A stretch of 64,000 nucleotides of DNA from Pseudomonadales bacterium (GTDB lineage: Bacteria; Pseudomonadota; Gammaproteobacteria; Pseudomonadales; Azotimanducaceae): NCBI GenBank assembly GCA_012103505.1, contig WLWP01000001.1:2976001-3040000 (forward strand). Direction: 5' to 3'. Each line of letters begins with the position of its first letter. Positions within the stretch are counted from its first letter, which is position 1. Of this stretch, positions 5,055 to 32,125 are shown one piece after another. The notes under the pieces are model-generated. The model was not told where the DNA came from, made no database searches, and was given only the letters and a program-made list of their open reading frames with translations. Made by a program: the position numbers and the translations under genes.

Positions 5055-5102
5055 ATGGCTCCGCCTGCTGGGCTCGAACCAGCGACCCGCTGATTAACAG
5101 TC
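5055..5102. repeat. att-like direct repeat, left copy (partial tRNA-Asn)
   Basis: Forty-eight bases identical to 32078-32125, ending inside the anticodon arm of tRNA-Asn. The bases after it (GTGGTCG) differ from the tRNA, so it cannot encode a functional tRNA. It marks the distal end of the island. Confidence 0.9.
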
Positions 5103-5219
5103 GTGGTCGTAACTCATTGAATTTAATCAGGTTTCGGTGAAACTCAAGTAAACTCTACGATATAGGGAAGTTTGTGTTGAGGCAAGTTGAGAACAATTGA
5201 GTCTGCTTGAGGGTGTTGG

Positions 5220-5237
5220 GGTACCTGATTTAGTACC
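5220..5237. other. Paired GGTACC motifs (12-bp period), candidate recombinase arm site
   Basis: GGTACC at 5220 and AGTACC at 5232 are spaced 12 bp apart, 118 bp after the att-like repeat. The same pair with the same spacing occurs at 16965/16977 and 18318/18330. Short direct repeats of this kind lie between att cores and integrase genes in tRNA-targeting elements. The stretch 5103-5356 otherwise holds no gene; several TTGAG/CTCAA repeats precede the pair. Confidence 0.5.
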
Positions 5238-5356
5238 TCTTTTTCTAGCGTGCTAATAAACTCTTTCTGAGACCTACTTGGCTCCATACCTCGAATCGCG
5301 AAAACTCAATTTCGCTAGACCGACAACCAGGAAGTTTCTACCAATAAGCAACGATC

Positions 5357-6147
5357 ATGGACGATTCAGTTAAACAACCAGCGAGAAACGTAAACATCGC
5401 GTCTGGCGCTATTTTAATCTACGTTTTGGCTGGTGGTGATATCACAGGCTTTCAAGCAGGGTCTTTTACGATGCCAGTAGAACGAACTTGGGTTCTCTCC
5501 TGGGCTGCAGTGTTAGTCTGGGCTTGGATGTATTATCAGTACTTTCTGGCGACTTCTGATCCCTGGAAGACCGTCAAAGAGAAGTTACATAGCTACGATC
5601 GTACCCACTCGTTCCTGGTTTCGTTCTTTCCCAATCAACCCGTCACTGAAGAAGACCTGGATTCAGCCACTCAGCACATCCTGACCCAGATGAATAATAG
5701 CCAGTGGAGACCCGCTGGTTGGGATCGAAACCTTGAAAGAGAGATGCAGCGCGCGCCACCAGCTGCCAAGGAAGATGCAGTCGAGAGGCGCTTAGCATTG
5801 AGCAATTCACTTTTGAAACCAATGAGAGGGCATACAATTCTGGCCCACCACTCGAGATGAGAGGTTTGAGGTTCGGAATAAAGGCGAACTCATCACTAAC
5901 GATGGAGTGGAAGAATGGGTCACACACACTGAAGACCAACGGTCGAACCGGCTTTTTTCCGGTCCCGTTGTTTCAGTTCTGTAAGATAAAAGCAAGAAGC
6001 ATTGGGCTTTGCATTAGGAATGACCACGAAATTAGTCAGCTCTTTGTACCCAACGCTCTCGCCTTTCTCGCCTTGATTTGTGTGCTCTTCAGATTGTTGA
6101 CTCCGGATGTCAATCCTCCAGACTTTCCCTCTCTCGGTAGTGAGTAG
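5357..6147 (+). pseudogene. Membrane protein of unknown family, split by a frameshift near 5790
   Basis: The first frame (5357-5860) encodes about 145 sensible residues with two hydrophobic segments (ASGAILIYVLAGG and WVLSWAAVLVWAWMYYQYFL), then switches to an unconvincing tail. A second frame, open through about 5790-6147, continues with a plausible strand-rich domain (SIEQFTFETNER, then RGLRFGIKANSSLTMEWKNG) and a third hydrophobic segment near the C-terminus (FLALICVLFRLL). One indel around 5780-5800 would join them into a protein of about 263 residues. The C-terminal frame also has an ATG overlapping the first stop (ATGA at 5857), so a two-gene reading is possible. No family is recognised. 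It sits where an integrase would be expected beside the left att repeat. Confidence 0.55.
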
Positions 6148-6161
6148 AACTAGCCGTCAAG

Positions 6162-7157
6162 CTATGAGCAACGGCACAACAGGCACGTTAGTGTCCTTTC
6201 GGATGCGGGTATCTCGGAAAACTGACGTTGAAAGTTGCCTTCCCCCTTGTCTTCCTCGTCGCCAATCATGAGAGTGTAGCCTTTGCCCTTGATCTCAATC
6301 CCGAAGGGGTAAGCCGCACGAGGTTCGTAGACGGTGGCAAGTGCCTCGATGTTTTGGTCGCCGATCTTGAGGGGTTTTGGATTGGTCATTGCTAATGGTT
6401 GTGGGTCCTCAGTTTGGGACGTGACGTTTACGTTACCTTCTTCGATTGGAGTAGCGGCTACGCCGAATAGGTCAGACAATTCGCTAATCACGTGCAGGTG
6501 TTCGATGCACGCAATTCTGAACGCGCTAGAGCGGTCCCTGATTTCAGTCCCGACAATTTTCTCTGCTTTGGAAATGTGCTCTCTTAGGCTCTCTATATGA
6601 TTTCGTTCGGATAGCCACCAGAATCCGCGTTTCCCGGCCAGGACAGGGGTGGTTGGCAAAAATACTGCGTCGAGCGTGCCAGGGTCTCGCGGTCTATTCT
6701 GAGGAAGGTTTTCGACCCTGACTCCCTTAAGCGTTAATCCACCACCTTCATAGTCTTTATCCAGATGCGCAACAATGGAGTTGCGTAATTCCATCAGTGC
6801 CTCGTGCTCATGGCTGTTCACTACCGGATCGAGAAATGGGTACTTCCACGGACCATTAGTTTTCTTTTGGCTTTTGCTTAGTTGCCCCCACGACGTTCCG
6901 TCTTGGCCAGACCTGAGCGAGTTAATCTCGGGACTGTAATTGCCAGACCAGGGTTTCTGATAGTCGACAACGAGACTACGGGTGCACGCGATCTTCAGCT
7001 GATATGAAAGCTCGTCGTATTGGTCTGCAAATTCCTCTGCTACTAAACCAGCCGATCTGAACATGTGCCACATCTGTAGAAGACCGCGAAGTGGAGTGAC
7101 ATGCGGTTCGAGTTCACTCTTGGCCGCTTCCGCATCATCTGTGAGATCAACGGACAT
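6162..7157 (-). CDS. HEPN-like hypothetical protein
   Basis: A 331-residue protein from the ATG at 7157 (the frame extends to 7205). The N-terminal half is helical and contains LRNSIVAHLDKDY. This matches the RN-x(4)-H motif of HEPN domains, in which Arg and His form an RNase or nucleotide-binding site and a polar residue follows the Arg. A second part with beta-strand character follows a polar linker rich in Thr, Asn and Glu. HEPN proteins are common in toxin-antitoxin and phage-defence loci; no partner nucleotidyltransferase is next to it. It is convergent with the broken membrane gene at 5357-6147. The domain call rests on one motif, so family and function remain tentative. Confidence 0.5.
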   Translation of the reverse strand: MSVDLTDDAEAAKSELEPHVTPLRGLLQMWHMFRSAGLVAEEFADQYDELSYQLKIACTRSLVVDYQKPWSGNYSPEINSLRSGQDGTSWGQLSKSQKKTNGPWKYPFLDPVVNSHEHEALMELRNSIVAHLDKDYEGGGLTLKGVRVENLPQNRPRDPGTLDAVFLPTTPVLAGKRGFWWLSERNHIESLREHISKAEKIVGTEIRDRSSAFRIACIEHLHVISELSDLFGVAATPIEEGNVNVTSQTEDPQPLAMTNPKPLKIGDQNIEALATVYEPRAAYPFGIEIKGKGYTLMIGDEEDKGEGNFQRQFSEIPASERTLTCLLCRCS

Positions 7158-7868: not shown

Positions 7869-8687
7869 TCATTCCAACAGCGCCATTGAACTGCCTACGT
7901 TGACAACGCCTAGACCAAAGAGAGGCTTGTAGCCGAGGAGTTCCTGCACGCGAGTAGGCATCTCCCGCACCTTCTCTATCGGCACGGTGAGAAAAAGATT
8001 TTCGGCAGTGCGCATCCAACCGACAACGAAGCCGTAACCCAGACCGCGTCGAGACTGATTCTCGGTTGTATTCGCTCCTCCCCCGTGCAGTGTGCCGCCG
8101 AGCCAGAAGAGCGAGTCGCCAGCATCCATCTCAGCATAGGTGATCTCGCTCGGTTCCGGGATACGATCGCGATCCCAAACATGAGAGCCAAGAACTACCT
8201 GGGTTGCACCATTCTCCCTCGTGAACTCGGAGAGAGCGAGCATGACCATTACGCTGACGTGTGGGCTATCGCTGCGCAGCATCGGCCATGCGTTTTCATC
8301 GCGATGGAGGCGCTGTGCCGCCTCGCCCGGACCGATCTGGATCAGTTGGGAGGTGTTGAGCAAATAGTCCGGACAATTCGGTTTGAGAAAATAATCGCAA
8401 ACGTCGAGCGCCGGTGACTCACTTAGAAACTCGACAAAAGTCGGTGACTTGTATGGTATCCCGTCGAACCGAATCGTCCTGGAGCCGTAGAAGACCTCCA
8501 TTGTCGGGTGGTTCGGATTTCGCGACTCCGGAGAGTTGGAGGCGATCACAGGGTCGGGGTCTGCGTTGAGACCGCGCAATTGCTCGGGTGTGAGCGCACC
8601 TGCGACCACACACACCCCATCACGCGCAAGGGCCGCATTGAGCGGCACGACTCCCTCACTCGCTGCAATTCGCACGATCTCAGTCAT
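7869..8687 (-). CDS. Phytanoyl-CoA dioxygenase (PhyH) family protein
   Basis: A 272-residue Fe(II)/2-oxoglutarate oxygenase. The metal triad is H128-x-D130 (LHRDE) and H201 (LHGGGAN), with R213 positioned to bind 2-oxoglutarate; all are present, so it should be active. PhyH-family enzymes hydroxylate fatty acyl chains, terpenoids and other small molecules, and several act in secondary metabolism. It begins 14 bases after the TonB receptor stop and so belongs to the minus-strand catabolic operon with BVMO, two SDRs and an esterase. It may add a hydroxyl group early or late in that pathway. Family certain, substrate unknown. Confidence 0.85.
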   Translation of the reverse strand: MTEIVRIAASEGVVPLNAALARDGVCVVAGALTPEQLRGLNADPDPVIASNSPESRNPNHPTMEVFYGSRTIRFDGIPYKSPTFVEFLSESPALDVCDYFLKPNCPDYLLNTSQLIQIGPGEAAQRLHRDENAWPMLRSDSPHVSVMVMLALSEFTRENGATQVVLGSHVWDRDRIPEPSEITYAEMDAGDSLFWLGGTLHGGGANTTENQSRRGLGYGFVVGWMRTAENLFLTVPIEKVREMPTRVQELLGYKPLFGLGVVNVGSSMALLE

Positions 8688-8701
8688 GTTTTCCTCAATG
8701 C

Positions 8702-11113
8702 CTAGAACCTGAAAGTAGCCTCGATACCAATAGTACGAGGACGATTGACCGCGAATGTGTCAGCAGCGAAATCAAGTTCTCCACCGGCATTTACGAAGGG
8801 CAATCCCAGATTTCCGTCTATCGACGTAAACTCAACATCGTTTGTCAGGTTCGAACCATAAGCAACAACGGACCAGGAATCGGTCTCAAGACCCACACGC
8901 AAATTTAGAATGCCCAATGACGACATTTCGCTCGATGGGAAGTTCGTCACCGTCGAGAACCGTGACCCTGTGTAGTTGAAGCTCATATGGCCTGTCAGCA
9001 ACATACCACCGTCCGAGATTGGAAACGCGGCATCAGCACCAACGGAGTACGACCACTCAGGCGTGTTCGCACTCTCGTTGCCTTCACTTAGATCAAAAGC
9101 GAATCCGGTTGCCAAAGTGGCTGGCGACAACAACTGACTGTCCTGGAATTCAGTATCTTGATAGGCGCTACTGAAGAAGGTACTGAAGTTTCCATTCACT
9201 CGCCAAATCGCTTCTAGCTCGAGGCCTCGTATGTCCAACTCCGGACCATTGGCCACCATGACAAAGGGATTGGAAACCTGGACCTGTGGGTCATCGAAGG
9301 TGGTATAAAAACCTGCAACGTTCAAGGTCAAAGCATCGTCCGCCCATTGCGTTTTAACACCGATCTCATAGCTGAGCACTTCGTCTTCAGAAAAAGCACG
9401 AACGTTACTGAATACGGTCGGATTCCCGCCAGACGCGAAAAATGCAGAGCTCGACGGATTCAAGTTGCCGTTCCTGGCGCCGGTTGCAACACCTGCATAG
9501 ATCATCACATTGTTTGAAAAATCATACTCAACAGCCACTCGTGGCAAGAATTTAGTCAGCTCGAACACACCCTTGTTCGAAAGCCCAGCGCCAATCACGA
9601 AATCCGTCAGATTGCCCAATACAAATGGCGGTGCCAGGCCGAAGGGGCCACCACCGAGTGCTAGGGTTGAGACGGTCGTTTCATTAACAATCTCTTCGTC
9701 AACGTAGCGCACCCCACCAATCAGCCGTAGGTTGTCGGTAGCTTCATAAGTCAGTTCGAAAAATGCCGAGAGCTGCTCTGATTCAACTGTGCTGTGCTGA
9801 TTAAAGAGAGCATTACTACCAGCCGGTAGTACAACAAAATCACCAAACTCAACTGCCTCAGTGTCATTACCGGAATCTAGCTCGGTGTCCTGATAATAGA
9901 GTCCCGCTATAAAGCTTAATGGCCCTTCCATTTGCGAGACAATCCGAAACTCTTGAGTAAAACTTTGATCGTCGTTCATCACGACACTTCTAGGGGTTAA
10001 CGCTACGGGTAAAAACAATCCAAATGCGCGGCATCCCGGGCAAAGAAACTCCGTCGCGGTCTCTCGCTTAAAAAGCCCTGTAACCGAAGAAAGCGTTACC
10101 GATTCTAAGTCGTAGTCGATTTTTGCGCTGTAAATCTCGAAGTCATCTTCATTGTCACCGTCAACTAGAGAATCTGAAACAAGGTCGTCTGCGTCGATTG
10201 GAGGCGCTGCAACGGCATTGCTCTCGCCGATGTCATCGTTCCCAACAAATGCCATAAGTCGTACACTGAGCGCGTCATTCGGTTCATAAAGAGCGACCAA
10301 TCGCGTACTAACAGATTCATAGTCGTTGATATCGCTTGCACCAGTCGCAGAATTGTCGATAAACCCGTCATCGTCACGGTAGTTAACCACTGCTCGAATA
10401 CCAAACGTATTGGGGGAAAGGATTAGCGATGTTGCAGCGGATACAGCGTAGTTCGTACCACCATCGTCAGTCGAGCCCAAACCCATCTTAACAATGCTAT
10501 CGGAGATGCTTTCACCCGAAAGGTCTGGGGATCTAGTCGCGTAGCGTATCGTGCCACCTACCGAACCTTCGCCAAAGAATGTTGGTTGCGGTCCACGCAA
10601 CACTTCAACTCGATCGAAATCAAAGAGGTTGAAATCACGTTGGCTTGCAGTGGACTGCGCCATGGGAATGTCATCTAGGAATTGGCTGACGAGTGGTCCG
10701 GACAACCCCGTGTCCGATAAGCCCTGCATAGCGCCGTTTGCAACTCCGCGAATACCAACATCGTTCTGATTAGGGCCGCGGTCATTCAGGTTGAGCCCTG
10801 GTATTCGCGCAGCAATGTCCTCAAAATCGGTGATCCCTTCCCGTTCAATCAAGGTGCTATCGAGAGCGGAAACAGCGCCGCCAATATCTTGCACGGTTTC
10901 CTCACGGAAACGCGCGGTGACAACAATTTCTTCGTAAACCAAAGCATCACTAGCCTGACTCGCATTCGCATCGGCACCTTCTGCGATTGCGACTGATGCG
11001 CCAAATCCTAGAATAAGCCCTAACAAAGACCCCAGGATTCGTTTGTTTCTAGGGGTCTGGCAATCCATTCGACCCTCTTGTTTTGCGTGACGGCACTTAT
11101 GTTTAATTTGCAT
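8702..11113 (-). CDS. TonB-dependent outer-membrane receptor
   Basis: A receptor of about 800 residues. It has a signal peptide (ILGSLLGLILGFGASVAIAEG), a TonB-box-like EEIVVTARFRE, a plug domain (residues ~60-180) with FDRVEVLRGPQ and GGTIRYATRSP, and a long beta barrel ending in the C-terminal Phe typical of BAM substrates (TFRF). The ATG at 11113 has AGAGGA just before it; 11125 and 11068 are alternatives. In this branch (CirA/iron-complex type in name, but abundant in catabolic clusters) the ligands are often hydrophobic nutrients, not iron. It sits between the BVMO (52 bases) and PhyH (14 bases) in one operon, so it probably imports the pathway substrate. Confidence 0.92.
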   Translation of the reverse strand: MQIKHKCRHAKQEGRMDCQTPRNKRILGSLLGLILGFGASVAIAEGADANASQASDALVYEEIVVTARFREETVQDIGGAVSALDSTLIEREGITDFEDIAARIPGLNLNDRGPNQNDVGIRGVANGAMQGLSDTGLSGPLVSQFLDDIPMAQSTASQRDFNLFDFDRVEVLRGPQPTFFGEGSVGGTIRYATRSPDLSGESISDSIVKMGLGSTDDGGTNYAVSAATSLILSPNTFGIRAVVNYRDDDGFIDNSATGASDINDYESVSTRLVALYEPNDALSVRLMAFVGNDDIGESNAVAAPPIDADDLVSDSLVDGDNEDDFEIYSAKIDYDLESVTLSSVTGLFKRETATEFLCPGCRAFGLFLPVALTPRSVVMNDDQSFTQEFRIVSQMEGPLSFIAGLYYQDTELDSGNDTEAVEFGDFVVLPAGSNALFNQHSTVESEQLSAFFELTYEATDNLRLIGGVRYVDEEIVNETTVSTLALGGGPFGLAPPFVLGNLTDFVIGAGLSNKGVFELTKFLPRVAVEYDFSNNVMIYAGVATGARNGNLNPSSSAFFASGGNPTVFSNVRAFSEDEVLSYEIGVKTQWADDALTLNVAGFYTTFDDPQVQVSNPFVMVANGPELDIRGLELEAIWRVNGNFSTFFSSAYQDTEFQDSQLLSPATLATGFAFDLSEGNESANTPEWSYSVGADAAFPISDGGMLLTGHMSFNYTGSRFSTVTNFPSSEMSSLGILNLRVGLETDSWSVVAYGSNLTNDVEFTSIDGNLGLPFVNAGGELDFAADTFAVNRPRTIGIEATFRF

Positions 11114-11177
11114 GGTTCCTCTCATTTCTCAAATTAGGTCATTTACGAAAAGGTCCTGGGTTAGCCAAGCACGCTAT

Positions 11178-12632
11178 CTACCCACCCACCTCAAATTGGT
11201 CTAGCTCGATATTCGCAATCAACGAGCGATAGTCATCACTCGAACCCGGGGAAATGCTGTGATTGAAGCCTGTTTGATCAGACCACCACGATGTACAGCC
11301 TTTATCGTGTGTTGTGCCCTCAAATCGCCGCTCAACATCTCGAGTGAATTCATCAACGAATTCCTGCTTAGGGTTCAATGACACAATCGCCTCGCGTTGT
11401 AAGTGCTCAACCATTCGAACCACATAGTCGCCCTGTGCTTCTATCGTCTGTAGCGCAGAGTGCAATCCCGTACCATTAGGGCCCATCATTAGAAACAAGT
11501 TGGGGAAGTCATGAATCATGACTGTTTTGAAGGAAGTTACTCGATTCTTCCAAGCCTGGGTTAATTTCAACCCCCCAGCTCCAGTTAGATCAATCTCGTT
11601 GGCAATGTTGAACGCTTTAAAGCCTGTAGCAAAAACAATCACGTCGACATCGTAGCTTTCCCCGTCGGACACCAACCCACTCTGTGTTAAGGAATCCACG
11701 GCGCCCGTCACCAGAGTGACATTGTCTTTGTCGTAGGTTGCGTAGTACCTGTTAGATATCGTTGCGCGCTTACAGGTAAAGTTATGATCTGGTGTTAGTG
11801 CCTTAGCCACTTCTGGATCTGACACACTCCGCTGTATCTGCTGTCGCGCTCGCATTTCGGCATTCGTGTTCACCTCTGTACCGACACGATGAAGGTCGAT
11901 ACTGCTGGATTCCCAGGACTGGTAAAGGTCGTGACGCAGTTTGGTCACGGCCTCGGGATTGCTGCGAAATTCCGCTCGTTCTTCTTCTGTGTATTCGGGG
12001 TCCTTCTTTGAGCCGACCCAAACCGGGCTGCGCTGGAATACGAAAAGCTCTTCTACCTGATCCGCAATCTCCGGCACGATCTGCACCGCGGTGGCACCGG
12101 TGCCCACAACCGCTACACGCTTACCCGTCAAGTCGAGCTCGTCAGGCCATTCGGTTGTATGAAACTGCTGACCCGAAAAAATATCTTGGCCTGGGATGTC
12201 CGGCAGGTTTGGCGTGTGCAACCCCCCTAACGCTGAGACAATCGACTTGGCGGCAAAGGTCGAGCCGTTTGAATCCGTTAGCACCCAACGGTCTGTTTCC
12301 CAAACAGCCGATTCCACGAGCGTGTTAAAGGTGATTTGATCGTAAACGTCAAATTCCGTCGCGCACTTTTTAACATAGTCCCAAATTTCAGCACCTGGGG
12401 CGTACCATCGTGACCATTCCGGATTCGGCGCAAAGGAGTATGAATACAGATGCGAAGGCACATCACAAGCCACCCCCGGGTATCGATTGTCTCGCCATGT
12501 ACCGCCTACATCAGCACCCTTCTCAAAAACGTGGAAGTTGGCAACCCCTGCCTCTTTCAGCTTGATCGCTGCACACACGCCAGATAAACCAGCGCCAATC
12601 ACTACAACTTCGTAAATCTTCATTTCGTTCAT
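11178..12632 (-). CDS. Type I Baeyer-Villiger monooxygenase (flavin-binding)
   Basis: A 484-residue FAD/NADPH enzyme. It has a first Rossmann motif GAGLSG (13-18), the BVMO fingerprint F152-x-G154-x3-H158-x3-W162-P163 and a second Rossmann motif GTGATA (177-182). This set separates BVMOs from other flavin monooxygenases. The enzyme would insert one oxygen next to a ketone to make an ester or lactone. It is 8 bases downstream of an SDR that could supply the ketone, and the esterase in the same operon could open the product. Length is normal for the shorter BVMO group without an N-terminal extension. The exact ketone cannot be inferred. Confidence 0.9.
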   Translation of the reverse strand: MNEMKIYEVVVIGAGLSGVCAAIKLKEAGVANFHVFEKGADVGGTWRDNRYPGVACDVPSHLYSYSFAPNPEWSRWYAPGAEIWDYVKKCATEFDVYDQITFNTLVESAVWETDRWVLTDSNGSTFAAKSIVSALGGLHTPNLPDIPGQDIFSGQQFHTTEWPDELDLTGKRVAVVGTGATAVQIVPEIADQVEELFVFQRSPVWVGSKKDPEYTEEERAEFRSNPEAVTKLRHDLYQSWESSSIDLHRVGTEVNTNAEMRARQQIQRSVSDPEVAKALTPDHNFTCKRATISNRYYATYDKDNVTLVTGAVDSLTQSGLVSDGESYDVDVIVFATGFKAFNIANEIDLTGAGGLKLTQAWKNRVTSFKTVMIHDFPNLFLMMGPNGTGLHSALQTIEAQGDYVVRMVEHLQREAIVSLNPKQEFVDEFTRDVERRFEGTTHDKGCTSWWSDQTGFNHSISPGSSDDYRSLIANIELDQFEVGG

Positions 12633-12640
12633 TCTTTCAT

Positions 12641-13450
12641 CTATTCCAACGACTGCCCGCCGTCGACAGGCATACGAACGCCGGTCACAAAGCTTGCATC
12701 GTCACTTAACAAAAAGGCCGCGACTGCTGCGATCTCTTCGGGCTTGCCATAGCGTCCTAACGGTATCGACTGATTAATCGTCGCACGCGACACCTCGGAA
12801 TGGCGCGCATCAATAAACTCTTCAACTGCACCCAACATGTCCGTATCGATGGGTCCCGGGCAAATCGCGTTAACCCGAATGTTATGCTTTGCATATTCAG
12901 TGGCAGCGTTGAAAGTGAGGTTTGCCACCGCACCTTTGCTCATGCCATAAAGTGACAAGCCGCGGTTAGCTCGCATCGCGGCCATGGAGGCAGTGTTCAC
13001 AATCGAACCACCACCATCACTGGCCAACATCGCTGGCTTGGCATACTTGATGGCTAACCATGCGGCGCGCACATTGACCGCAATTATCTGCTCAAACAAC
13101 TCTAAGCTGTTATTTTCAAAACGATTATAAGCACCAAAAATCCCGGCATTGTTAACCAGACCATCCAGGCGGCCATGACTTTCCAGTGCGGTATCGATCA
13201 TGGTTCTAACTGTACTCTCGTCTGCAAGATCTCCCACAACCATCGAAAATCTGGCGTCGTCATCGCCACCCGCTCTCTCTGCAAGCTCCTGACCAACAGC
13301 ATTCAGAGCCGCTTCATCTCGGTCGACGACCACAACATCTGCGCCTTCGTCAGCACAACGCAGGGCGATTGCTCGACCAATACCATTTGCGGCACCCGTT
13401 ACCACCACTACCTTCGCCGCCAGCTTTCTGTGATCTAAGGTTTCGCTCAT
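12641..13450 (-). CDS. Short-chain dehydrogenase/reductase (SDR), second of pair
   Basis: A classical SDR of 269 residues from the ATG at 13450, chosen because GGGAGG lies six bases upstream; a further ATG at 13474 would overlap the previous gene and has no such site. It has the cofactor motif TGAANGIG, an Asp (VVDRD) favouring NAD over NADP, NNAG, and the catalytic S155, Y168 and K172. It would oxidise a secondary alcohol to a ketone or the reverse. The neighbouring SDR 16 bases upstream is clearly different in sequence, so the two may act on different steps or stereoisomers. It directly precedes the BVMO. Confidence 0.92.
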   Translation of the reverse strand: MSETLDHRKLAAKVVVVTGAANGIGRAIALRCADEGADVVVVDRDEAALNAVGQELAERAGGDDDARFSMVVGDLADESTVRTMIDTALESHGRLDGLVNNAGIFGAYNRFENNSLELFEQIIAVNVRAAWLAIKYAKPAMLASDGGGSIVNTASMAAMRANRGLSLYGMSKGAVANLTFNAATEYAKHNIRVNAICPGPIDTDMLGAVEEFIDARHSEVSRATINQSIPLGRYGKPEEIAAVAAFLLSDDASFVTGVRMPVDGGQSLE

Positions 13451-13466
13451 CTTCTGCCTCCCTGAC

Positions 13467-14360: not shown

Positions 14361-14374
14361 TACTTTCTTTCTCT

Positions 14375-15517: not shown

Positions 15518-15630
15518 CTAGACTCCTCAACCGGCTATCAACAACATGACAAATTAAAGAGTGGGGCGAGGAGCAACAAGGTCACTTCCTCTAAACCTCT
15601 AGGGGACAATTTCGCTCATCATTTTCCGAT

Positions 15631-19528: not shown

Positions 19529-19544
19529 GACGGAGCCTTCAGGT

Positions 19545-23092: not shown

Positions 23093-24934
23093 CTAGCGTA
23101 TTGCAGCAGTTTTTCGAAACTCAAGCCCCTCGAATTCTCCAGATGTTCTCCACTCCTCAATGTAGTTGAAAAACTCGACGGCACCTGGCGGGTATCCATT
23201 CGTATTGAGCTTATGACGGCGACCTTCTGGTTTTCCCTCGTTGTTGTAGTAACCGGGTGTGCAGTCTTCCCCTCCTACTATTGTTGCGAACTCGGCTTCC
23301 TCAATAGCTCGAACCCATTCTTGCTCGGATGTCTTGAGACATTCGACCACGGAAGCACTTGTATCCTCAGCATGCCTAACAATTGCCGCAATCGTTTTTG
23401 CGGCGTCCGCCAGGTTGCTGGTTAAGTTGGCACCGAGGTTTGCCGCTTGCACAAAACCTACTATGAATAGATTCGGGAAATCGTGTACGTGCATTCCATG
23501 GAGCGTCTCCATGCCATCCTGCCAACGATCTGCAAGTGTGACTCCCCCTATGCCTGTAATATCGAATCCTGACCGGCGCGTATAATCCGTGTTGAATTCG
23601 AAACCGGAAGCGAAGACCAAACAGTCGAGTTCGTGATGAACGCCATCAACCCAGACGCCTGTTTCGTCGATGCGTTCGACACCTTTACCATCGGTGTCCA
23701 CCAGGCGCACATTCGGTCGATTGAATGCAGGTAAGTATTCATCGTGAAAACACGGTCGCTTGCAAAACTGGCGGTACCACGGTTTTAAACTAGACGCTGT
23801 TTCTGGATCGCTGACGATGTCATCGATCCGCTGTCGAATCTCCACCATTTTTGCGTCATCAGTGCATTCGTAACAACGAATAACCGCATCCGGAGTCCAC
23901 TTGTCTGGCCTACCAACATCTTCCAACAGCCGATCACGAATCCTGATGCCAATATCGGTCCAGCCGTCATGAACTAGATCTTCATCCGCAAGGCCGCTCG
24001 TTTGTAGTGTGGCAAAGTTCGTTAACCACTGGCCTTGCCATCCTTTCGGCAAATCTTTGAACCAATTGGGTTCGATGGGATGGTTGTTGCGCACATCGAC
24101 AGCCGACGGGGTACGTTGAAATACCGATAAGCTTCCAGCATCACGCCCGAGCGGCGGGATGCATTGTATGGCAGTCGCGCCGGTACCAATAATGCCGACC
24201 CGTTTGTCCTTCAAGTTTTCCATCGGGGAGCCGGTCCAGTCCCCACCGGTATAGTCATAGTCCCAGCGTGCAGTATGGAATGAGTTGCCCTTAAAGGTGT
24301 CAATACCTGGAATTCCGGGGAGTTTGGGTCGACTTAGCGGTCCGGTTCCCGCAGCTACATACTTAGCTGTCATACAATCGCCGCGATCTGTTTCTATAAC
24401 CCAAACCGAGTCGGATTCATTCCAAGTCAGGTTGGTGACCTTGGTAGAAAACACGGCGTGCGGAGCTAAGTCATACTGCTCTGCGATACGTTTCGCGTGC
24501 CCCCATATCTCATGCGCCTGGACATACTTTTCCGTCGGCATGTAACCCGTCTCTTCTAGCAGAGGAAGATAAACCATTGCGGCTGTATCACACATAGCGC
24601 CGGGATATCTGTTCCAATACCACACGCCCCCGAAGTCACCGCCACTTTCAATAATTCGAAAGTCTGAGATCCCAGCCTCGCGCAATCTCGCGCCTGCACA
24701 AAGGCCAGAAAAGCCACCGCCAATAAACGCAAATGTCACATGATCTTTAAGTGGTTCGCGCTCGGCTATTGGTGTGTAAGGATCTTCTTCAAGGTATGAA
24801 AATTTACCCGTTGGCTCCACGTACTGATCAACACCATCGTTGCGGATTCGCTTTTCGCGTTCTTGTAGGTTCTTTTCACGAATGGCTTCTCTTTCAGCGG
24901 GCGATAAGTACCCAACGTTGTCATTCATCGTCAT
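23093..24934 (-). CDS. Type I Baeyer-Villiger monooxygenase, long form with N-terminal extension
   Basis: A 613-residue flavoprotein. It has GGGFSG (72-77), the BVMO fingerprint F214-x-G216-x3-H220-x3-W224-D225 and a second Rossmann motif GTGATA (250-255). An N-terminal extension of about 65 residues (SPAEREAIREKNLQEREKR) and the total length match the group containing cyclopentadecanone and OTEMO-like enzymes, which accept large or fused rings. It is clearly different from the 484-residue BVMO in the same island. It is last of a minus-strand set with a secreted protein and an HSL-type esterase that could hydrolyse its ester product. The NADPH-dependent reaction class is secure; the substrate is not. 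Confidence 0.9.
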   Translation of the reverse strand: MTMNDNVGYLSPAEREAIREKNLQEREKRIRNDGVDQYVEPTGKFSYLEEDPYTPIAEREPLKDHVTFAFIGGGFSGLCAGARLREAGISDFRIIESGGDFGGVWYWNRYPGAMCDTAAMVYLPLLEETGYMPTEKYVQAHEIWGHAKRIAEQYDLAPHAVFSTKVTNLTWNESDSVWVIETDRGDCMTAKYVAAGTGPLSRPKLPGIPGIDTFKGNSFHTARWDYDYTGGDWTGSPMENLKDKRVGIIGTGATAIQCIPPLGRDAGSLSVFQRTPSAVDVRNNHPIEPNWFKDLPKGWQGQWLTNFATLQTSGLADEDLVHDGWTDIGIRIRDRLLEDVGRPDKWTPDAVIRCYECTDDAKMVEIRQRIDDIVSDPETASSLKPWYRQFCKRPCFHDEYLPAFNRPNVRLVDTDGKGVERIDETGVWVDGVHHELDCLVFASGFEFNTDYTRRSGFDITGIGGVTLADRWQDGMETLHGMHVHDFPNLFIVGFVQAANLGANLTSNLADAAKTIAAIVRHAEDTSASVVECLKTSEQEWVRAIEEAEFATIVGGEDCTPGYYNNEGKPEGRRHKLNTNGYPPGAVEFFNYIEEWRTSGEFEGLEFRKTAAIR

Positions 24935-25018
24935 CTCCGTGCATGTACTTAGTTTTTCGGCGCAAGCAAGTGCTGCCGGGTGTGGATCTGTTTTGCAGGG
25001 TTCTAGCTAAACTCGGGC

Positions 25019-26065
25019 TTATTCCTCTCGTTCCTGCAACCGGGCACCACGCAGAATGCCCCCCATTGCGTAATTGCCTTCATGGCAGGCGTATTCAAAT
25101 ATTTTGTCTGACGACGCGCTCATGAGAACTCGAAACGTAAATGGTTGGGCAAAACTTTTAGGCGCGCTGACGGTTGCTTCGTAAGCAAGTTCACCCTCGC
25201 CCAGAGGAGTGAAGCGTTCTACCAGATGCAGGTCGTTCCCAGACCCCAAAACCCCATTCACATCTGCGTTTGCTGGTTGAATAGGTAAGTGGAAAGCTGG
25301 TGTTTTGTCTGAAAAATTTCGAGTCTCAACAACCAGGGTCTCACCTTCCCAGCGGCCGCGTGAGCTACCGTTCCACTGGTCTATACCTGCGGGTAAATGC
25401 GGCCGTCCATCGGTCGGGATGATCCTCGCGTCATGCACCATTTCCGTCATCAGCATCACATACTTAGGTGTTTGTACAATGCGCAGATTGTTGTTGTACG
25501 CACTTGGCATGATTGGAGGACCAGCGTTAAAACCCAGTAGACAACGTTCTGATAGACCGAGCGTTTCGGGATGGTCATGCCGATAATCAGGACCAACGCT
25601 GTACGACAAAACATCGCGTACAGGGGCGGAGCGCTGTTTGTTCTGTGCAAGTCTTGCGGCATTGGCTTCTGGCAAGACGTTCGGTAGACGACCATTGGGC
25701 GGATCGGTAATCAGAGACGTACGCATTTCTTTGTCCAGATTCTCACCCGCGTCGAGCCAGAATGCGTTGTAGCCTTCCACATCCTCTTTCGCAACGCCAG
25801 TTGGTTCATCTACCTGGTCTGGCGGTGCAATCTTGTTCAGCAATGCTTGTGCTTCCTCCCTTGTTAGTATCGCCTTATCGCCGAACTCTATTGGGCGTTC
25901 CAATGGTGTAAGCGTACGGAAATCCCACACACCCTGAATATCTGGTGTATTCCAAGCAGTTTGCGCCGGTGGTAAACGGGTCTGATCAGCAATTACTGCT
26001 GCCGACGCACAAATGCTTCCAAGTTGGATCATCAATTTCAACAAAATCGGTGGTCGCATAGTCAT
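25019..26065 (-). CDS. Secreted conserved protein of unknown function (catabolic-cluster type)
   Basis: 348 residues with a signal peptide (LLKLMIQLGSICASAAVIA). The mature part opens with TPDIQGVWDFRTLTPLERP and contains GRWEGETLVVETRNFSDKTPA, a combination I recall from uncharacterised exported proteins that recur beside TonB receptors, amidohydrolases and monooxygenases in soil and marine proteobacteria. Beta-rich, two cysteines near the C-terminus. It lies 84 bases upstream of the BVMO and 47 downstream of the esterase on the same strand. It may bind or process the substrate in the periplasm, but no function is established. Confidence 0.7.
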   Translation of the reverse strand: MTMRPPILLKLMIQLGSICASAAVIADQTRLPPAQTAWNTPDIQGVWDFRTLTPLERPIEFGDKAILTREEAQALLNKIAPPDQVDEPTGVAKEDVEGYNAFWLDAGENLDKEMRTSLITDPPNGRLPNVLPEANAARLAQNKQRSAPVRDVLSYSVGPDYRHDHPETLGLSERCLLGFNAGPPIMPSAYNNNLRIVQTPKYVMLMTEMVHDARIIPTDGRPHLPAGIDQWNGSSRGRWEGETLVVETRNFSDKTPAFHLPIQPANADVNGVLGSGNDLHLVERFTPLGEGELAYEATVSAPKSFAQPFTFRVLMSASSDKIFEYACHEGNYAMGGILRGARLQEREE

Positions 26066-26112
26066 CTCTGCGTTCGTCCTTTAGCTCGTAGTATCGAATC
26101 GGAATTCATAAC

Positions 26113-27120
26113 TCACTCTCCCAGACACCCACGTATCCAGGCACCTGCTTCATCGATCGCCGACAGGCCTGCGGAAGGCATGAGAAAGTGGAACAGTGGC
26201 CACGCGTGCACCATGTCTTTCCAAACGCGCAATTGAACATCCACGCCGGATAGAGCGGACTTGTTCGTAAAAGTGATGGCGTCACTCAAAAGGACTTCAT
26301 CAGTGCCAACCTGAATCATCATTGGTGGAAATCCACTAAGGTCACCGAAGATTGGTGAAACCAGCGGATTCCTTGGATCAGTCCCTGCGTAGTAACTTTT
26401 AGCAAGAGAACTGAGCTCGGAACGCGTGACCATCGGATCCTGATCTGCACAGGAGGTCATCGATTCTCCACTTTGGGTGAGATCCAACCAAGGGCTTAGT
26501 AGATAGCCTCCTGCAGGCATCTCTCTTTTTGTTTCGCGGAGCTTTAGCAACAAAGACGCGGTCAAGTTTCCACCGGCGGACTCCCCAGCAACGACGATGT
26601 CGTCTCCGGAGTAGCCCTGCGCACAGACATAATCCCAAGCGGCCACAGCATCGTTCAAAGCCGCTGGAAACGGTTGTTCCGGCGCAAGTGCGTAATCCAT
26701 GTTGAACGCGGTTACCCCTGATGATTCCGCAAGTCGCGCAACCAAATGTCGATGGCTTAACGCGGAACCAAAACCGTGGCCGCCACCATGGTGATAAATA
26801 ATGGCTTTGCCAGGGATAGCTGAGATTGGTGTGATCTTTTCACCCTTAACGCCCTCGACAGAGAATTCCGTTCTTGTACAACTTTCAGGAAACGGCACGG
26901 CGCCATGTTCATCGTCGAATGCCTTTCGTGATTCTTCGATGGATTGCTCAATCCCCTCCCCCTCTTTCAACCGCTCAGCCCAGAGCGTTTTAAACCGGTT
27001 ACTTTCGGTTTGGAATTCGTTGTTCACTTCTTGGTTCCCCCTGCAGACCACCTTCGGCAGGCCTTGTGTATGCATTCGATGATCACGATCCTCGATGCAC
27101 TCATATGTAATATTTGACAT
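26113..27120 (-). CDS. Alpha/beta hydrolase, HSL (family IV) esterase type
   Basis: 335 residues. The oxyanion-hole motif HGGG (111-114), nucleophile elbow GESAG with Ser181, Asp near 274 (GTDEVLLSD) and His305 (VHAWP) complete the hormone-sensitive lipase triad. There is no signal peptide, so it is cytoplasmic. The family hydrolyses short to medium esters, lactones and acetylated natural products. It follows a good sigma70-like promoter (27130-27159) and leads the set with the secreted protein and the long BVMO, so hydrolysis of the Baeyer-Villiger product is a reasonable role. The N-terminal ~75 residues form a cap typical of the family. Confidence 0.88.
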   Translation of the reverse strand: MSNITYECIEDRDHRMHTQGLPKVVCRGNQEVNNEFQTESNRFKTLWAERLKEGEGIEQSIEESRKAFDDEHGAVPFPESCTRTEFSVEGVKGEKITPISAIPGKAIIYHHGGGHGFGSALSHRHLVARLAESSGVTAFNMDYALAPEQPFPAALNDAVAAWDYVCAQGYSGDDIVVAGESAGGNLTASLLLKLRETKREMPAGGYLLSPWLDLTQSGESMTSCADQDPMVTRSELSSLAKSYYAGTDPRNPLVSPIFGDLSGFPPMMIQVGTDEVLLSDAITFTNKSALSGVDVQLRVWKDMVHAWPLFHFLMPSAGLSAIDEAGAWIRGCLGE

Positions 27121-27129
27121 TTCAGTGTA

Positions 27130-27159
27130 AATATAAACGTTAAGATAGATTTATGTCAA
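27130..27159 (-). promoter_or_regulatory. Sigma70-like promoter of the esterase-BVMO set
   Basis: On the minus strand TTGACA (27159-27154) and TATATT (27135-27130) are separated by 18 bases, a near-consensus pair ending about 10 bases before the esterase ATG. Transcription would then begin at or very near the start codon, giving a leaderless or very short leader message, unless a downstream start is used. The AT-rich spacer could hold an operator for the adjacent TetR-type regulator. Confidence 0.5.
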
Positions 27160-27220
27160 CAAGGAATAGTGAGGCGTTGCCATACAAACCCACAACGGAA
27201 GGCGTTTCAGTCTTTGTGGC

Positions 27221-28474
27221 TTATCTCGGCAGAAGGCCGACGCGATTTAATTTTGCTATTACGTCAGGCGCAATTGAGCGTTCGTGCTGAGAAAGTAGAT
27301 CGAGCCATTTTGGTAGCCATTCAAATAATCCGGGATTAATGGCAGTTAAGGCTCGACTATTAAGCTGCCTTACCGAGCCCATTTTCTGGCCGGTATCGTA
27401 GAGGGTAATGAAGGAATCCGTCATGCGATCGCTGGATTCACTTATCTCCTGAAAAACGTCAGGCGGAAGTCTTTCAAGCCCGCTCACAGGCGCCAGGGGG
27501 GTAATTTCCTCGCTCAAGCTGGATTCTGCATAAGCCCGGTTGGCTGCAACGATAGCGTGCAGAGCCGGGCCTTCGTAGTTTTGGGCTGCGATTGAAACGT
27601 TTTCGTAGAGTTTAAAGGAGCGGCTGTAGCATGCGGCGACCAAGTCCTCTTTGTCCCCAACGTTGTGGTAGATCACTTTCTTAGTGACGTTAAGGCGAGC
27701 CGCAATCTCATCGAGTGATGTCGCATCAATACCCTTGAGATTAAACAACCATGACGCGGCAGCGAGCAACGACTCCTGCTTCGCTTTCGCGATCGCTGCA
27801 TTGTCAAATACTTTGGTCACCGGCATGAGTGCGGTACGCACATCAATGGGCATGATCGCGTGATCCTCAGATCGGTCGTTGGCAATACCTTGCTTCAGAA
27901 GTCCTGTCATTGCGCTGATCAGGTCGGAGTCATTGAGCGGATCGCTGGTGCTCCAGTTTCTAGTCGAAGGAAACCATGCGATAAACCCGAGTATGGTAAG
28001 CGCGACGATGGAAGCCTCACAATGATCTATCTCTCCCTTGTGGGCACCGGCAAGGAGTAGGTTTTCCAACTTCAGCTTGATGCGTTCAAATTGGACAATC
28101 ACGTGCTCTCGGCGGTCTTCGTTCAGATAGGCTAAATCGCTCAACGTAGCTAACTCCGGCGCGTTCGGATCCAGCGTGTTTTCAACAAAATGTTCGATCG
28201 TAGAAATAGTGGTGTCACCGCTCTCGATGGCACTCTCAAGGTGCTCATTGAGCAACTCGCAGGAACGGTTATAGCTCTGGAAGACGAGGTCTTCTAAGTC
28301 GCTAAAGTAGTAATAAACGGCTGCACGAGACACCTTCAACTCTTTACTGAGCATTGGCAACGAGCCGGACGAGATACCGTGGCGGTTCAGAACGTTGGCA
28401 GCAGCACCCAGCCAGACTCCTCGCTTTTTCGACTTCTTATTGCTCGCTTTCGACTTCTTGACTGATGTTTCCAT
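27221..28474 (-). CDS. TetR-family regulator with two tandem DNA-binding domains
   Basis: 417 residues, twice the usual TetR length. HTH 1 spans about 22-66 (LSKELKVSRAAVYYYFSDLE) and is followed by its own helical region. HTH 2 spans about 236-280 (LDEIAARLNVTKKVIYHNVG) with a second ligand-domain-like helical region. This looks like an in-frame fusion of two repressors. The N-terminus is Lys/Ser-rich. It is divergent from a TonB receptor (90-bp gap) and upstream of the esterase-BVMO set, so it probably controls both. In the TetR family the helical C-terminal region binds the effector, here perhaps a pathway intermediate. Confidence 0.85.
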   Translation of the reverse strand: METSVKKSKASNKKSKKRGVWLGAAANVLNRHGISSGSLPMLSKELKVSRAAVYYYFSDLEDLVFQSYNRSCELLNEHLESAIESGDTTISTIEHFVENTLDPNAPELATLSDLAYLNEDRREHVIVQFERIKLKLENLLLAGAHKGEIDHCEASIVALTILGFIAWFPSTRNWSTSDPLNDSDLISAMTGLLKQGIANDRSEDHAIMPIDVRTALMPVTKVFDNAAIAKAKQESLLAAASWLFNLKGIDATSLDEIAARLNVTKKVIYHNVGDKEDLVAACYSRSFKLYENVSIAAQNYEGPALHAIVAANRAYAESSLSEEITPLAPVSGLERLPPDVFQEISESSDRMTDSFITLYDTGQKMGSVRQLNSRALTAINPGLFEWLPKWLDLLSQHERSIAPDVIAKLNRVGLLPR

Positions 28475-28564: not shown

Positions 28565-30739
28565 ATGCTGAATACTCAAAGAGGCTATTTACTATTTACT
28601 GTGTTGCTCTCTACTGTGTTTGCCAACACAGGCTTTGCAGAAGAACGCGTAATTGAAGAGGTTGTAGTCACAGCGCACAAACGAGCGCAGACGGTACAAG
28701 ATACGGCTGCTGCTGTGGCCGCGATAACTGGAGACGCATTGGATGACCAGGGCATTGACGGACCTTTTGGTCTGCAGTTCGTGACCCCGAGCATGCAAGT
28801 AGCTGACATTCTGGGGCGAACCTATATCACCATACGGGGTGTTGGGCTCAATCAAGGTTCTCCTGGCGTCGCGATCCACGTGGACGGTGTCTACCAACCC
28901 GACCCGAGAATGGGAGAGCTCTTACAGCTTGACCTGGAACGGGTTGAGGTGTTGAGAGGACCGCAAGGTACACTGTACGGGCGTAACGCCAATGGTGGCG
29001 CGGTGAATTATATTACCAAAGCGCCCGAGGATGAGTTTGACGCCTATGTGCTCGCGGGTGGGAACGACTACGACGAACTTCGAACCCAGGGTATGATCAA
29101 TATTCCTCTGTCTGACCAGCTCAGTGCCCGCGTGATTGCTAGCTGGCGAGACCAAGACGAGGGATATGTAGAAAATATTCTTCCCGGCGGAAAAGATTTT
29201 GACAAAAGTGAATCGAAATCAGCGCGTCTCCGGTTGCGATATACGCCATCGGATACTTTTGAGGCTGATTTCTCCGCCAGTTTCTCTGATCTGAATGGCC
29301 CGGTTCAGTACTTTACACTGAGCACCGAACCCAACCCTGTATCAGTATTCTTAAACCCATCCCTCGGAACTGCGACAACCACCCAGGAGCCATGGAAATC
29401 GTCTGCCAACGATCGAATAAACACCGATCAGGAATATACCAATGTTTCAGTCAATCTTACCTGGGATCTCGATACGGTTACCCTCAAGAGTATTACCGGC
29501 TATACCGACTACGATGAGGTGAGCCACGCAGATGACGACGGGATCAGCATTACAATGTTCCCCTCAGTGCGCTCCTATGATCAGGAATCACTCTCCCAAG
29601 AATTCAATATTTCCTACGTTGGTGACAACATCGACGTCGTCGGGGGCGTGTACTATTCAGAGGACGACTTCAATCATACGCTGGACTACGACCTGCTCGA
29701 AGGTGTGGCAGTCACACTTCTGCCTGCTGCAGGGTTGCCAATAGGCAGTGATCTGCTGTTTACAGTTCCCGACTTTGATACAGAAGTCATGGCAGTCTTC
29801 GGAGACGTGACCTACCACGTCAACGAACAGCTCAGCTTAATGGCTGGTGTGCGATACACTGATGAGTCGCAGTCGCAAACCCAGGCTAATAGCATCCAAA
29901 TTGGTGCAACAGGACCGGTTATTCCGACCTGTGCACTCCGGACTAATGATGCGGACTATGACGCTACAACGTTCCGAGCAGGCGCGAGCTATGCGTTCAG
30001 TGATAACGTCAATGGGTATTTCACCTACTCCGAGGGCTTCAAGTCGGGAGGCTACAACGCCTATGCCTGTGACGATAACTTCCAGCCAGAGGAGATTGAA
30101 GCCTACGAAGTTGGTCTGAAGACTGAGTTGCTAGATTCTGCATTAACCTTGAATCTTTCGGCCTTTTTCTATGACTATACCGATCTACAAATCAGTCAGG
30201 TGGTTGGCCTAACACGGTTAATCGACAACGCACCCAAAGCAGAAGTAAAGGGAGCGGAAGTAGAAGTTGCCTGGGTTCCCAACCAACATTGGATGATCAC
30301 CGGTAATGTTTCTTGGCTGGATGCGACGTACAAGGAATTTACGAATACAGACGGTTTGAATCCTGGGATAGGTGATCAAGTCCTTGATGGGAATTACTTA
30401 AATCATGCGCCGAAGTTGTCTACAAATTTGAGTGTTAGTTACACCACGCCTATGACCGATATGGGGCTCGTGGTGTTTCGTGCTGACTACAGCTACCGAG
30501 ACAACCTGTATTTTCGTGAGTTCAATGGACCGTTGGAAGAGCAGGAGTCCTACGCGATTGTGAACCTTAACGTGATCTGGGAGAGCCCCAGCGAGCAATA
30601 CAGTGTTCGATTGTTTGCCAACAATCTGACTGATGAAGTATATGTTTCACAGATGGACGCCTCCGACAATTTTGGCGCCCGTTTCCAAACCTGGGGCCGA
30701 CCCAGAGTTTATGGTGGCGAGGTCAAAGTTCGATTTTAG
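28565..30739 (+). CDS. TonB-dependent outer-membrane receptor
   Basis: 724 residues. Signal peptide (LLFTVLLSTVFANTGFA), TonB box region IEEVVVTAHKR, plug with LERVEVLRGPQGTLYGRNA and GGAVNYITKAP, then a 22-strand-type barrel ending in VKVRF. A good ribosome site (GGAGGGG) precedes the ATG. This PRR-type plug ('GTLYGRNANGG') is usual in receptors of catabolic loci in sphingomonad- and marine-type bacteria. It is divergent from the two-headed TetR regulator, which likely represses it. It would import the substrate of the second BVMO set. Ligand not readable. Confidence 0.93.
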   Translation: MLNTQRGYLLFTVLLSTVFANTGFAEERVIEEVVVTAHKRAQTVQDTAAAVAAITGDALDDQGIDGPFGLQFVTPSMQVADILGRTYITIRGVGLNQGSPGVAIHVDGVYQPDPRMGELLQLDLERVEVLRGPQGTLYGRNANGGAVNYITKAPEDEFDAYVLAGGNDYDELRTQGMINIPLSDQLSARVIASWRDQDEGYVENILPGGKDFDKSESKSARLRLRYTPSDTFEADFSASFSDLNGPVQYFTLSTEPNPVSVFLNPSLGTATTTQEPWKSSANDRINTDQEYTNVSVNLTWDLDTVTLKSITGYTDYDEVSHADDDGISITMFPSVRSYDQESLSQEFNISYVGDNIDVVGGVYYSEDDFNHTLDYDLLEGVAVTLLPAAGLPIGSDLLFTVPDFDTEVMAVFGDVTYHVNEQLSLMAGVRYTDESQSQTQANSIQIGATGPVIPTCALRTNDADYDATTFRAGASYAFSDNVNGYFTYSEGFKSGGYNAYACDDNFQPEEIEAYEVGLKTELLDSALTLNLSAFFYDYTDLQISQVVGLTRLIDNAPKAEVKGAEVEVAWVPNQHWMITGNVSWLDATYKEFTNTDGLNPGIGDQVLDGNYLNHAPKLSTNLSVSYTTPMTDMGLVVFRADYSYRDNLYFREFNGPLEEQESYAIVNLNVIWESPSEQYSVRLFANNLTDEVYVSQMDASDNFGARFQTWGRPRVYGGEVKVRF

Positions 30740-31511
30740 GTTTCGATTATTCCCTATCGATACCATTGCTCTGACCCGAAGTAATGCTGTCTGCACACAA
30801 CAGGCAGCTAGGTCATTTTCCTGGGCGATTTCTCGAGGCAGCAACTTCGTAACAAATGAAATTTGATGTTTGGGCATCCATATCCATCAGTCGAGCTAAG
30901 TCAGTTTCGTCTGGTTAGGGTCGATTTGAGACCTCCAAGCCAGCTTAGCGAACGTCGGCTTTCATGATTCGCGTGAAGTGGATCACGAAACGATCTCAGC
31001 TTTCTACAAAGCCGACATTCAAGACGCGATATCTATGCGTACTTTCGGCTAGAAGCAGCCGGTCAGATCTGCAAACTTTCAAAATGGTAGGCTGTTCACC
31101 ATGTCAACGCATTCGACTTTTTCACCGTGAAACTTGACGAAAGTACTGCCTATGGATTGAAAACCCATTGAAGAATTAAAACGCCAGCTGATCGATGCTG
31201 GAGTTGAAAAGAGGGCAGCGCACTTTGCCCGCGACGAAGTTGCAAACAAAGCCGCGATCTGGCAGAGCGTTACGCCGAAACCAGTTACAAACTGGGAGCT
31301 GCCGAATCCCATCTTAATGCACTGCGCCCAGCTAACGAAGAGGAAAGGAAACCTATATAACTAATTTTGGGATTCATCAGTTGAGAGTTAAAATGTCACT
31401 ATTGATCGAAAATCGACCCCGCACGAAAAACACGGTGTCGAACGCTGGTTGCGTTACTTCGGTAAATCTGACTAGGGGCGTCAATCTTAGAAACAAATAA
31501 TTCAAAACAAT
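30740..31511. other. Gene-poor stretch with decayed coding fragments
   Basis: No intact gene. About 31160-31365 on the plus strand a frame without a start reads IEELKRQLIDAGVEKRAAHF and ends shortly after; it looks like the middle of a lost protein. Nothing else is recognisable. The stretch separates the catabolic set from the replication-type HTH gene near the tRNA. Confidence 0.35.
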
Positions 31512-31868
31512 ATGCATTCCAAACGACGAGTCTTCAAAGGTGTATGGATCCCAAAGGAAATCTGGCTTTCCGATCTTTCTGCACAAGAAACCATGCTTTG
31601 GGCAGAAATCAACTCGCTCGACAACGAATTTGGCTGCGTTGCAGCCAATTCTCATTTCGAAGAAACACTACGATTGAAAGAGCGTCAAATACGCGAGTAT
31701 CTCAGACGCTTGAAGGACAAAGGCCTTATTGAAATTGATTTGAACAAAGCTAAGAACACAAGAACTATTCGATGTATTGGAAAGTACCGACGCACGCAAG
31801 ACGAAGTGAGAAGGGAAATCGGAGACCGTGTTAAAACCGTTGTGGAAAACCTTCGCTACCAAGACTAG
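31512..31868 (+). CDS. Winged-helix (HTH_36-like) protein, replication/plasmid type
   Basis: 118 residues. The text FKGVWIPKEIWLSDLSAQE then NSLDNEFGCVAANSHFEE and IREYLRRLKDKGLIEID matches the winged-helix domain found at the N-terminus of phage and plasmid replication initiators and ICE proteins. Here the protein is little more than that domain, with a short basic tail. It could be a truncated initiator or a small regulator. It lies 210 bases from the tRNA-Asn end of the island, the place where mobility genes usually sit, which supports a mobile origin. Confidence 0.65.
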   Translation: MHSKRRVFKGVWIPKEIWLSDLSAQETMLWAEINSLDNEFGCVAANSHFEETLRLKERQIREYLRRLKDKGLIEIDLNKAKNTRTIRCIGKYRRTQDEVRREIGDRVKTVVENLRYQD

Positions 31869-32030
31869 GCTGCGGCGGAAAGCTGCCAGACCTCCGGCGG
31901 AGTCCTGCTACAGGTGCGGTAGAACCCCGCCGCACTCTATTAGTGAACATTTAGTACTCATTCTAGTAACCAATCCTACGTCTCTAAATAAGGATGTGGA
32001 TAATCAAACTCATGAGCCTATATCGAGCCT

Positions 32031-32056
32031 AAACAGGGAGGATCCAGTCCCTGTTT
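32031..32056. terminator. Perfect 9-bp inverted repeat, possible bidirectional terminator
   Basis: AAACAGGGA and TCCCTGTTT are separated by eight bases and lie between the HTH gene (+) and the tRNA-Asn gene (-), which converge here. The T run after the stem is short (TTTAATT), so its strength is uncertain. Confidence 0.4.
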
Positions 32057-32077
32057 AATTCTAAGCTATTGATTTGT

Positions 32078-32125
32078 ATGGCTCCGCCTGCTGGGCTCGA
32101 ACCAGCGACCCGCTGATTAACAGTC
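32078..32125. repeat. att-like direct repeat, right copy (inside tRNA-Asn)
   Basis: Forty-eight bases identical to 5055-5102, covering the tRNA 3' end through the T arm into the anticodon loop. Confidence 0.9.

Follow-up and report, generated by a model that had tools for sequence, protein, structure and literature searches.

A 64,000-nucleotide stretch of a Pseudomonadales bacterium genome, referred to here as the window (G000:C6:2976001-3040000; G000 is a 5.82-Mb draft genome of 21 contigs), contains a 27-kb segment that is bounded by direct repeats and located at the 3' end of a tRNA-Asn gene (2,981-3,008 kb on C6). This segment is most likely the tRNA-proximal unit of at least three decayed integrative elements that accreted at this 3' end and resemble cis-mobilizable elements (CIMEs). 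A tyrosine recombinase would have inserted each unit into the 3' half of the tRNA gene, and each integration would have restored the tRNA and pushed the older units outward. The units would then have lost their integrases in place, leaving a probable stub at 4963-5010 with none other detected in the stack, and the remaining remnants, bounded by attachment (att) sites, would apparently be fixed in cis. Positions are given in window numbering, and negative coordinates continue this numbering leftward beyond position 1.

Attachment cores and arms at the tRNA-Asn gene

The tRNA-Asn(GTT) gene at 32079-32154 (minus strand), the presumed attachment target, was the only tRNA called by ARAGORN in the window, and it was also detected by an Rfam run over positions 1-40000. 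The sequence at 5055-5102 is identical to that at 32078-32125 over 48 bases, 47 of which are the 3' sequence of the tRNA, and the right copy alone sits inside a full tRNA, as an earlier note on this DNA had described. An exact 47-mer would be expected by chance in G000 about 6e-22 times. These two att cores, both read on the minus strand, mark the outer and the tRNA-proximal end of the 27-kb unit, respectively. A third copy, exact over 46 nt, was found at -1756..-1711, 1.76 kb left of the window. A fourth, decayed copy at -16077..-15986, about 16 kb to the left, was found with the DNA surrounding the left repeat; it is preceded by the TAAGTCTTTGAAAGA motif of a site in the relative G030. When up to three mismatches were allowed, the core pattern matched G000 only three times (-1756, 5056, and the tRNA), and all three matches were exact, on C6, and in one orientation. 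The decayed copy shares this orientation, and all four lie on the 3' side of one tRNA. Because further repeat copies occur at -1756 and about -16 kb on the same side of the tRNA, the segment is the innermost of three units, which measure about 14.3, 6.8, and 27.0 kb from the outermost to the innermost. The 27-kb unit is thus both bounded by att direct repeats and stacked with other units at one target, two features of CIMEs. The earlier note had proposed a single 27-kb island at tRNA-Asn; its insertion site was supported, but a single island was not, since further copies lie outside it. The case shows that two matching repeats within a single window can be part of a longer stack.

The same pattern was searched in 40 genomes of the genus, G000 counted in, and was present in 26 of them. 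Two or more copies on one contig were found in G000, G008, and G030. G024 has a second copy with four mismatches, and G002 and G004 each carry single copies on two contigs.

As predicted by tandem integration, a putative recombinase tail, a core, and a distal arm adjoin each other at the 5055 junction, which separates the 6.8-kb and 27-kb units. The block at 4958-5158 (plus strand) resembles an attP site and matched the DNA beside a tRNA-Asn gene in G030 (G030:C123:64473) with 83% identity over 202 bp, core included (E 6e-51), and the match extended 97 bp to the left and 56 bp to the right of the core. In G030, a C-terminal fragment of a PF00589 recombinase (E 2.8e-9) is encoded directly left of the core, and positions 4963-5010 (plus strand) aligned with this fragment in tblastn (16 aa, 69%, E 0.006). 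Judged from this alignment and the DNA match, 4963-5010 probably represents the final codons of a tyrosine recombinase, of which at most the tail has been kept; the lost gene would have been located to the left of the left repeat and oriented toward the tRNA. The earlier note had placed the missing integrase at 5357-6147 instead. That region, which the note called a broken membrane gene, holds two overlapping open reading frames (ORFs) of unknown kind on the plus strand, for which no homologue was found (both in PHROGs, the first also in Pfam and plasmids), and the probable remnant lies on the other side of the repeat.

Recombinases of the same class as the stub gave 22 matches (E<=1e-10) in 18 of 293 sampled genomes of the order. 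ARAGORN found a tRNA at 18 of these 22 loci (none at L116, L122, L126, and L131), and at 16 of the 18 the gene ended no more than 100 bp from the tRNA 3' end, the distances at L125 and L128 being 216 bp and 162 bp. A full-length member of the class, in G315, sits beside tRNA-Met.

The distal arm at 5103-5240 (plus strand), with AAACTC repeats and a GGTACC/AGTACC pair, recurs at three sites in two species (G030:C123, G030:C60, and G025:C18). The shared features are a GTGAAACTCAAGTAAACTC stretch, broken by one base at one site, and a spaced GTACC pair. A further match, of 38 bp, was found in G030:C81. The earlier note had described a preserved GGTACC pair beside the left repeat; arm-like DNA is indeed conserved there, but GGTACC at 5220-5225 is paired with AGTACC at 5232-5237, so that one GGTACC is changed. 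The arm at -1756 is of a different type. Without the core, a 111-bp stretch of it is 87% identical to the distal end of a tRNA-Asn island of 30 kb in G008, in which a PF00589 gene lies about 1.3 kb away from the tRNA; weaker matches were found twice in G008 and once in G009. These two arm types, the junction block, and the probable stub provide a concrete set of att sites for tracing how units pile up at one tRNA.

The arms also bear on the alternative that one larger composite element entered by a single integration and carried internal att copies from an earlier accretion elsewhere. Transfer of a whole composite is left possible in the available text of a review (PMC5704250), but the arm at -1756 is unlike that at 5103, and the two are shared with different relatives (G008 versus G030 and G025). 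A single entry is accordingly improbable.

Integrase searches and possible present mobility

PF00589 gave eight matches in G000. The stretch of C6 from 656 kb to 3,684 kb contained none of them, and the nearest was about 677 kb from the tRNA. Two home-made integrase hidden Markov models (HMMs), built from 26 recombinases (21 of the stub class, four from the eight G000 loci, and one from G008), gave no score above noise across the 104 kb between -40 kb and +64 kb. All six control loci scored with one or both models, L001 and L042 being training rows as well. Pfam, scanned at limits of 0.1 to 1e-4, detected no recombinase or relaxase in any of the segment's 32 ORFs with a length of at least 100 aa; the sole transposase-named match there was HTH_Tnp_ISL3 on an AraC-type regulator, below the cut-off. 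A tblastn search of the 27-kb unit with 21 class members and the G030 fragment, together with the HMMs, yielded nothing convincing. The earlier note had seen no recombinase gene in the segment and had proposed a search with tyrosine-recombinase profiles; the search gave no match, and the claim holds. The 27-kb unit thus has no integration or transfer gene detectable by the integrase HMMs or by Pfam on the 32 ORFs, which is a third feature of CIMEs, and it lacks the integrase of its own that a functional integrative and conjugative element (ICE) or integrative and mobilizable element (IME) would carry. The outer units were scanned with the integrase HMMs, and with Pfam on four ORFs of the middle unit and two of the outermost unit. 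Elsewhere on the contig, G000:C6:3684804-3685395 holds a broken integron-integrase-like gene (TIGR02249, 219 bits, positions 1-170 followed by 286-314, below the cut-off).

A missing integrase could be supplied in trans, and the units or the whole stack could still be excised by a matching enzyme from a visiting element or from elsewhere in the genome. The core is preserved exactly over 46 nt at -1756, at 5055, and in the tRNA, the arms are conserved across species, and the available text of the review reports conjugative transfer of CIME-ICE tandems (PMC5704250). Against this, the only stub-class match in G000 (E<=1e-10), at G000:C7:48329-48481, is a fragment interrupted by three stops, a tRNA is absent from all eight PF00589 loci (3.2-3.5 kb each), and one GGTACC of the arm is altered. 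We therefore regard continuing mobility as unlikely. A broader view would treat tRNA-Asn in part of the genus as a docking site, at which units lacking an integrase accumulate, persist, and pass from one species to another through the action of visiting integrases. Several integrase classes would then share one 46-48-bp core, and the site would act as a slow cassette platform for breakdown genes. We put forward this view only as a speculative and improbable one.

Gene content of the units

Catabolic set 1 (7869-16780, minus strand) encodes a PhyH protein, a TonB receptor, a Baeyer-Villiger/FMO-type monooxygenase, two short-chain dehydrogenases/reductases, a beta-lactamase-fold esterase, and an AraC-type regulator. 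The regulator is split over 15631-16290 and 16265-16780, with HTH_18 in one part and a sub-cut-off Arabinose_bd match in the other. Several broken genes had been claimed for the segment; the split regulator fits this claim, and the supposed broken gene at 5357-6147 had no homologue in the searches run. Catabolic set 2 (23093-28474, minus strand) encodes a 613-aa Baeyer-Villiger-type monooxygenase, which is PtlE-like but under the cut-off of that model, an unknown protein, a GESAG-type hydrolase of the hormone-sensitive-lipase kind, and a double TetR regulator. The domain scan placed a TonB-dependent receptor beside it on the plus strand (28565-30739). The closest solved relatives of the monooxygenases of both sets include cyclohexanone, steroid, and phenylacetone monooxygenases. 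As judged from these families, both sets would convert a ketone to an ester or lactone and then hydrolyse it, which would amount to ring cleavage.

Adjoining the tRNA, a 118-aa winged-helix protein (31512-31868, plus strand) matched phrog_186 (E 1.4e-10) and phrog_2880 (E 8.6e-10). It resembles the N-terminus of phage and plasmid replication proteins and is possibly a backbone remnant. Among the seven window ORFs compared with PHROGs for prophage structural and packaging genes, the one at 17075-18070 strongly matched phrog_38135, a family of unknown function (E 9.7e-41), and terminase names appeared at E 0.05-0.06 only.

The 6.8-kb unit, which starts at -1756 and occupies positions 1-5054 of the window, encodes an AsnC-type regulator, a TauD dioxygenase, an amidohydrolase, an unknown 312-aa protein, and, by eye, a transporter-like ORF; the window portion holds the dioxygenase, the amidohydrolase, and the 312-aa protein. 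In the outermost unit, -10397..-6358 (L040:9603-13642) encodes a WD40-repeat protein, with a caspase-like part by eye, followed by a trypsin-family protease.

Monooxygenases of this kind gave 14 matches (E<=1e-40) in G000, self counted, and some were present in all 40 genomes of the genus. In a tree, the 613-aa protein grouped with rows from outside the genus, mostly actinobacterial, apart from nine genus rows (100/100); 45 of the 79 usable outside rows were taken, and the tree carries a long-branch warning. This grouping gives a hint that the gene may have come from outside. When 19.9 of the 27 kb were used as a DNA query, the longest single piece found per relative measured about 0.95 kb or less (seven candidates scored per genome).

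Positions 22888-22976 are a copy of a family of imperfect palindromes of 75-115 bp with 25 matches in G000, self counted. Many of these lie on C14 and near the ends of C6 and C5, and their outer arms are variable and seemingly self-complementary. A related half was seen by eye at about 31040-31110. The copy at 22888-22976 was considered as an integron attC site and rejected, as its ends depart from the canonical attC boxes and the folding of the single copy was not significant.

Flanks in relatives and comparison with known systems

In a first comparison of flanks of about 10 kb from 12 relatives (>=40% identity, >=60% coverage), only G002 and G004 shared genes. Longer 3' flanks from 19 relatives (1.2-62 kb each) had many genes in common, in groups: 12 pairs between G001 and G059 and 13 pairs between G002 and G034 (>=45% identity). 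The idea of a hypervariable tRNA 3' flank was thereby overturned. Six of the 19 relatives (G001, G002, G004, G022, G034, and G059) carry a monooxygenase gene 12-18 kb downstream of tRNA-Asn, and these proteins are 74-96% identical to each other. Within 72 kb, the only matches of G000 to the 3' flanks of the 19 relatives were an IS481-type transposase (G009; 62% over 105 aa) and others of 47% identity or less. When 142 flank ORFs of 10 relatives were compared with 504 kb of G000, 10 matched (55% identity, half length).

These flanks raise the question of whether some of the 27-kb segment represents old chromosomal sequence downstream of the tRNA, with the repeats marking later insertions or rearrangements. 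Both the side and the orientation of the six relatives' monooxygenase agree with those of set 2, which is about 7 kb from the tRNA, and in G002 and G034 the gene is followed by an esterase. The esterase, however, is only 36-39% identical to that of set 1. The 613-aa monooxygenase is only 46-47% identical to the relatives' flank gene, and five other places in G000 match that gene better, indicating that it is not its orthologue. Moreover, three neighbouring flank genes of G034, two of them also matched from G002, lie in G000 at about -373 to -376 kb. There is thus little probability that an old flank accounts for part of the segment. The earlier note had suggested that an element brought two ring-cleavage gene sets into a core locus. 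Because breakdown genes occur near the tRNA in relatives where the repeats of the window were not seen, it is possible, and no more than that, that the catabolic genes arrived with the elements.

Several findings weigh against stepwise accretion of integrative elements. The stub match is weak at the protein level (E 0.006, from one of 22 queries), and -14488..-14405, within the outermost unit, scored E 0.026 in the same tblastn search. Within G000, the three tRNA-proximal ends resemble each other only in part. The recombinase of the G008 island belongs to another class than the stub. Near the same kind of arm, G025 carries relaxase and coupling-protein genes, on the opposite side of the core and on a different contig from its tRNA-Asn; relaxase genes near this kind of arm were found in G025 only. 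The monooxygenase genes near tRNA-Asn in six relatives mean that the history of the cargo may differ. The displacement of conserved 3'-flank genes, three of them together, away from the G000 tRNA implies that its left flank was rearranged too, so that the site is more than the relatives' site plus a stack, and its outer edge is left undefined by the comparison. The assembly is a draft with 6.61% estimated contamination. Finally, no empty-site junction was found among the relatives compared. The earlier note had expected one joining about 5054 to 32126, and the outer core copies also speak against that junction.

In G009, tRNA-Asn is followed by an IS481-type element that matches one left of -1756 with 82% identity and an equal spacing of 9 nt. 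G009 was not accepted as an empty site, since the match is an insertion sequence and stops at the end of the element; it is suggestive only. Should the element be shared by descent, the tRNA would be joined in an empty site to -1757 instead of 5054.

On the 5' side of the tRNA, a block from 40234 onward is common to several relatives. About 8 kb (32223-40230, encoding GDPD, a DUF5916 protein, and others) lie between the tRNA and this block in G000, and the G009 homologue of 40234-41427 comes to within about 150 bp of the tRNA. In G006, a PF00589 gene (G006:C46:50470-50922) stands on the 5' side of tRNA-Asn; both sides of the tRNA may attract insertions.

Copies of the tRNA 3' end of 27 to 34 nt occur close to tRNA-Asn in G002, G004, G021, G033, and G058, about 100 bp apart where there are several. 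An extra stretch follows the copied tRNA end in G002, G004, and G021, the three that were read. The 27-nt copies could suggest that the repeats of the window are relics of tRNA gene duplication and not integration sites, but they differ from the 46-48-nt cores, which bear a conserved arm and a probable recombinase tail, and this explanation is very improbable.

No published description of this tRNA-Asn locus was found among titles and abstract openings in the open-licence literature. The accreted units are closest to CIMEs, described in the available text of the review as att-bounded units without an integrase that occur in tandem with ICEs and IMEs at one att site (PMC5704250). Like these, the G000 units are bounded by att sites, have no detectable integrase, and are stacked at a tRNA 3' end; they differ in that no functional ICE or IME neighbour was seen in the stack, and their ICE or IME origin and mobility are putative. 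According to the available text on Dehalococcoides (PMC3146451), ssrA islands lie in tandem downstream of a tRNA-like gene and are bounded by a direct repeat copied from the 3' end of that gene; an integration module is missing from 15 of them, and their cargo is catabolic. Insertion there is into ssrA, the repeat is 20 bp long, and the recombinase is of the CcrB-like serine type, whereas the target in G000 is tRNA-Asn, with a 46-48-bp repeat and a probable tyrosine-recombinase tail. Within the genus, the G008 and G030 islands use the same tRNA and core; the outer arm is common with G008 and the junction block with G030. Their cargo is different at the cut-offs used, and G008 has a PF00589 gene and fragments while G030 has recombinase fragments. 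Overall, the stack looks like a further example of the known tandem-accretion pattern rather than a novel element type, and the locus is a clear but ordinary case of such accretion combined with integrase loss.

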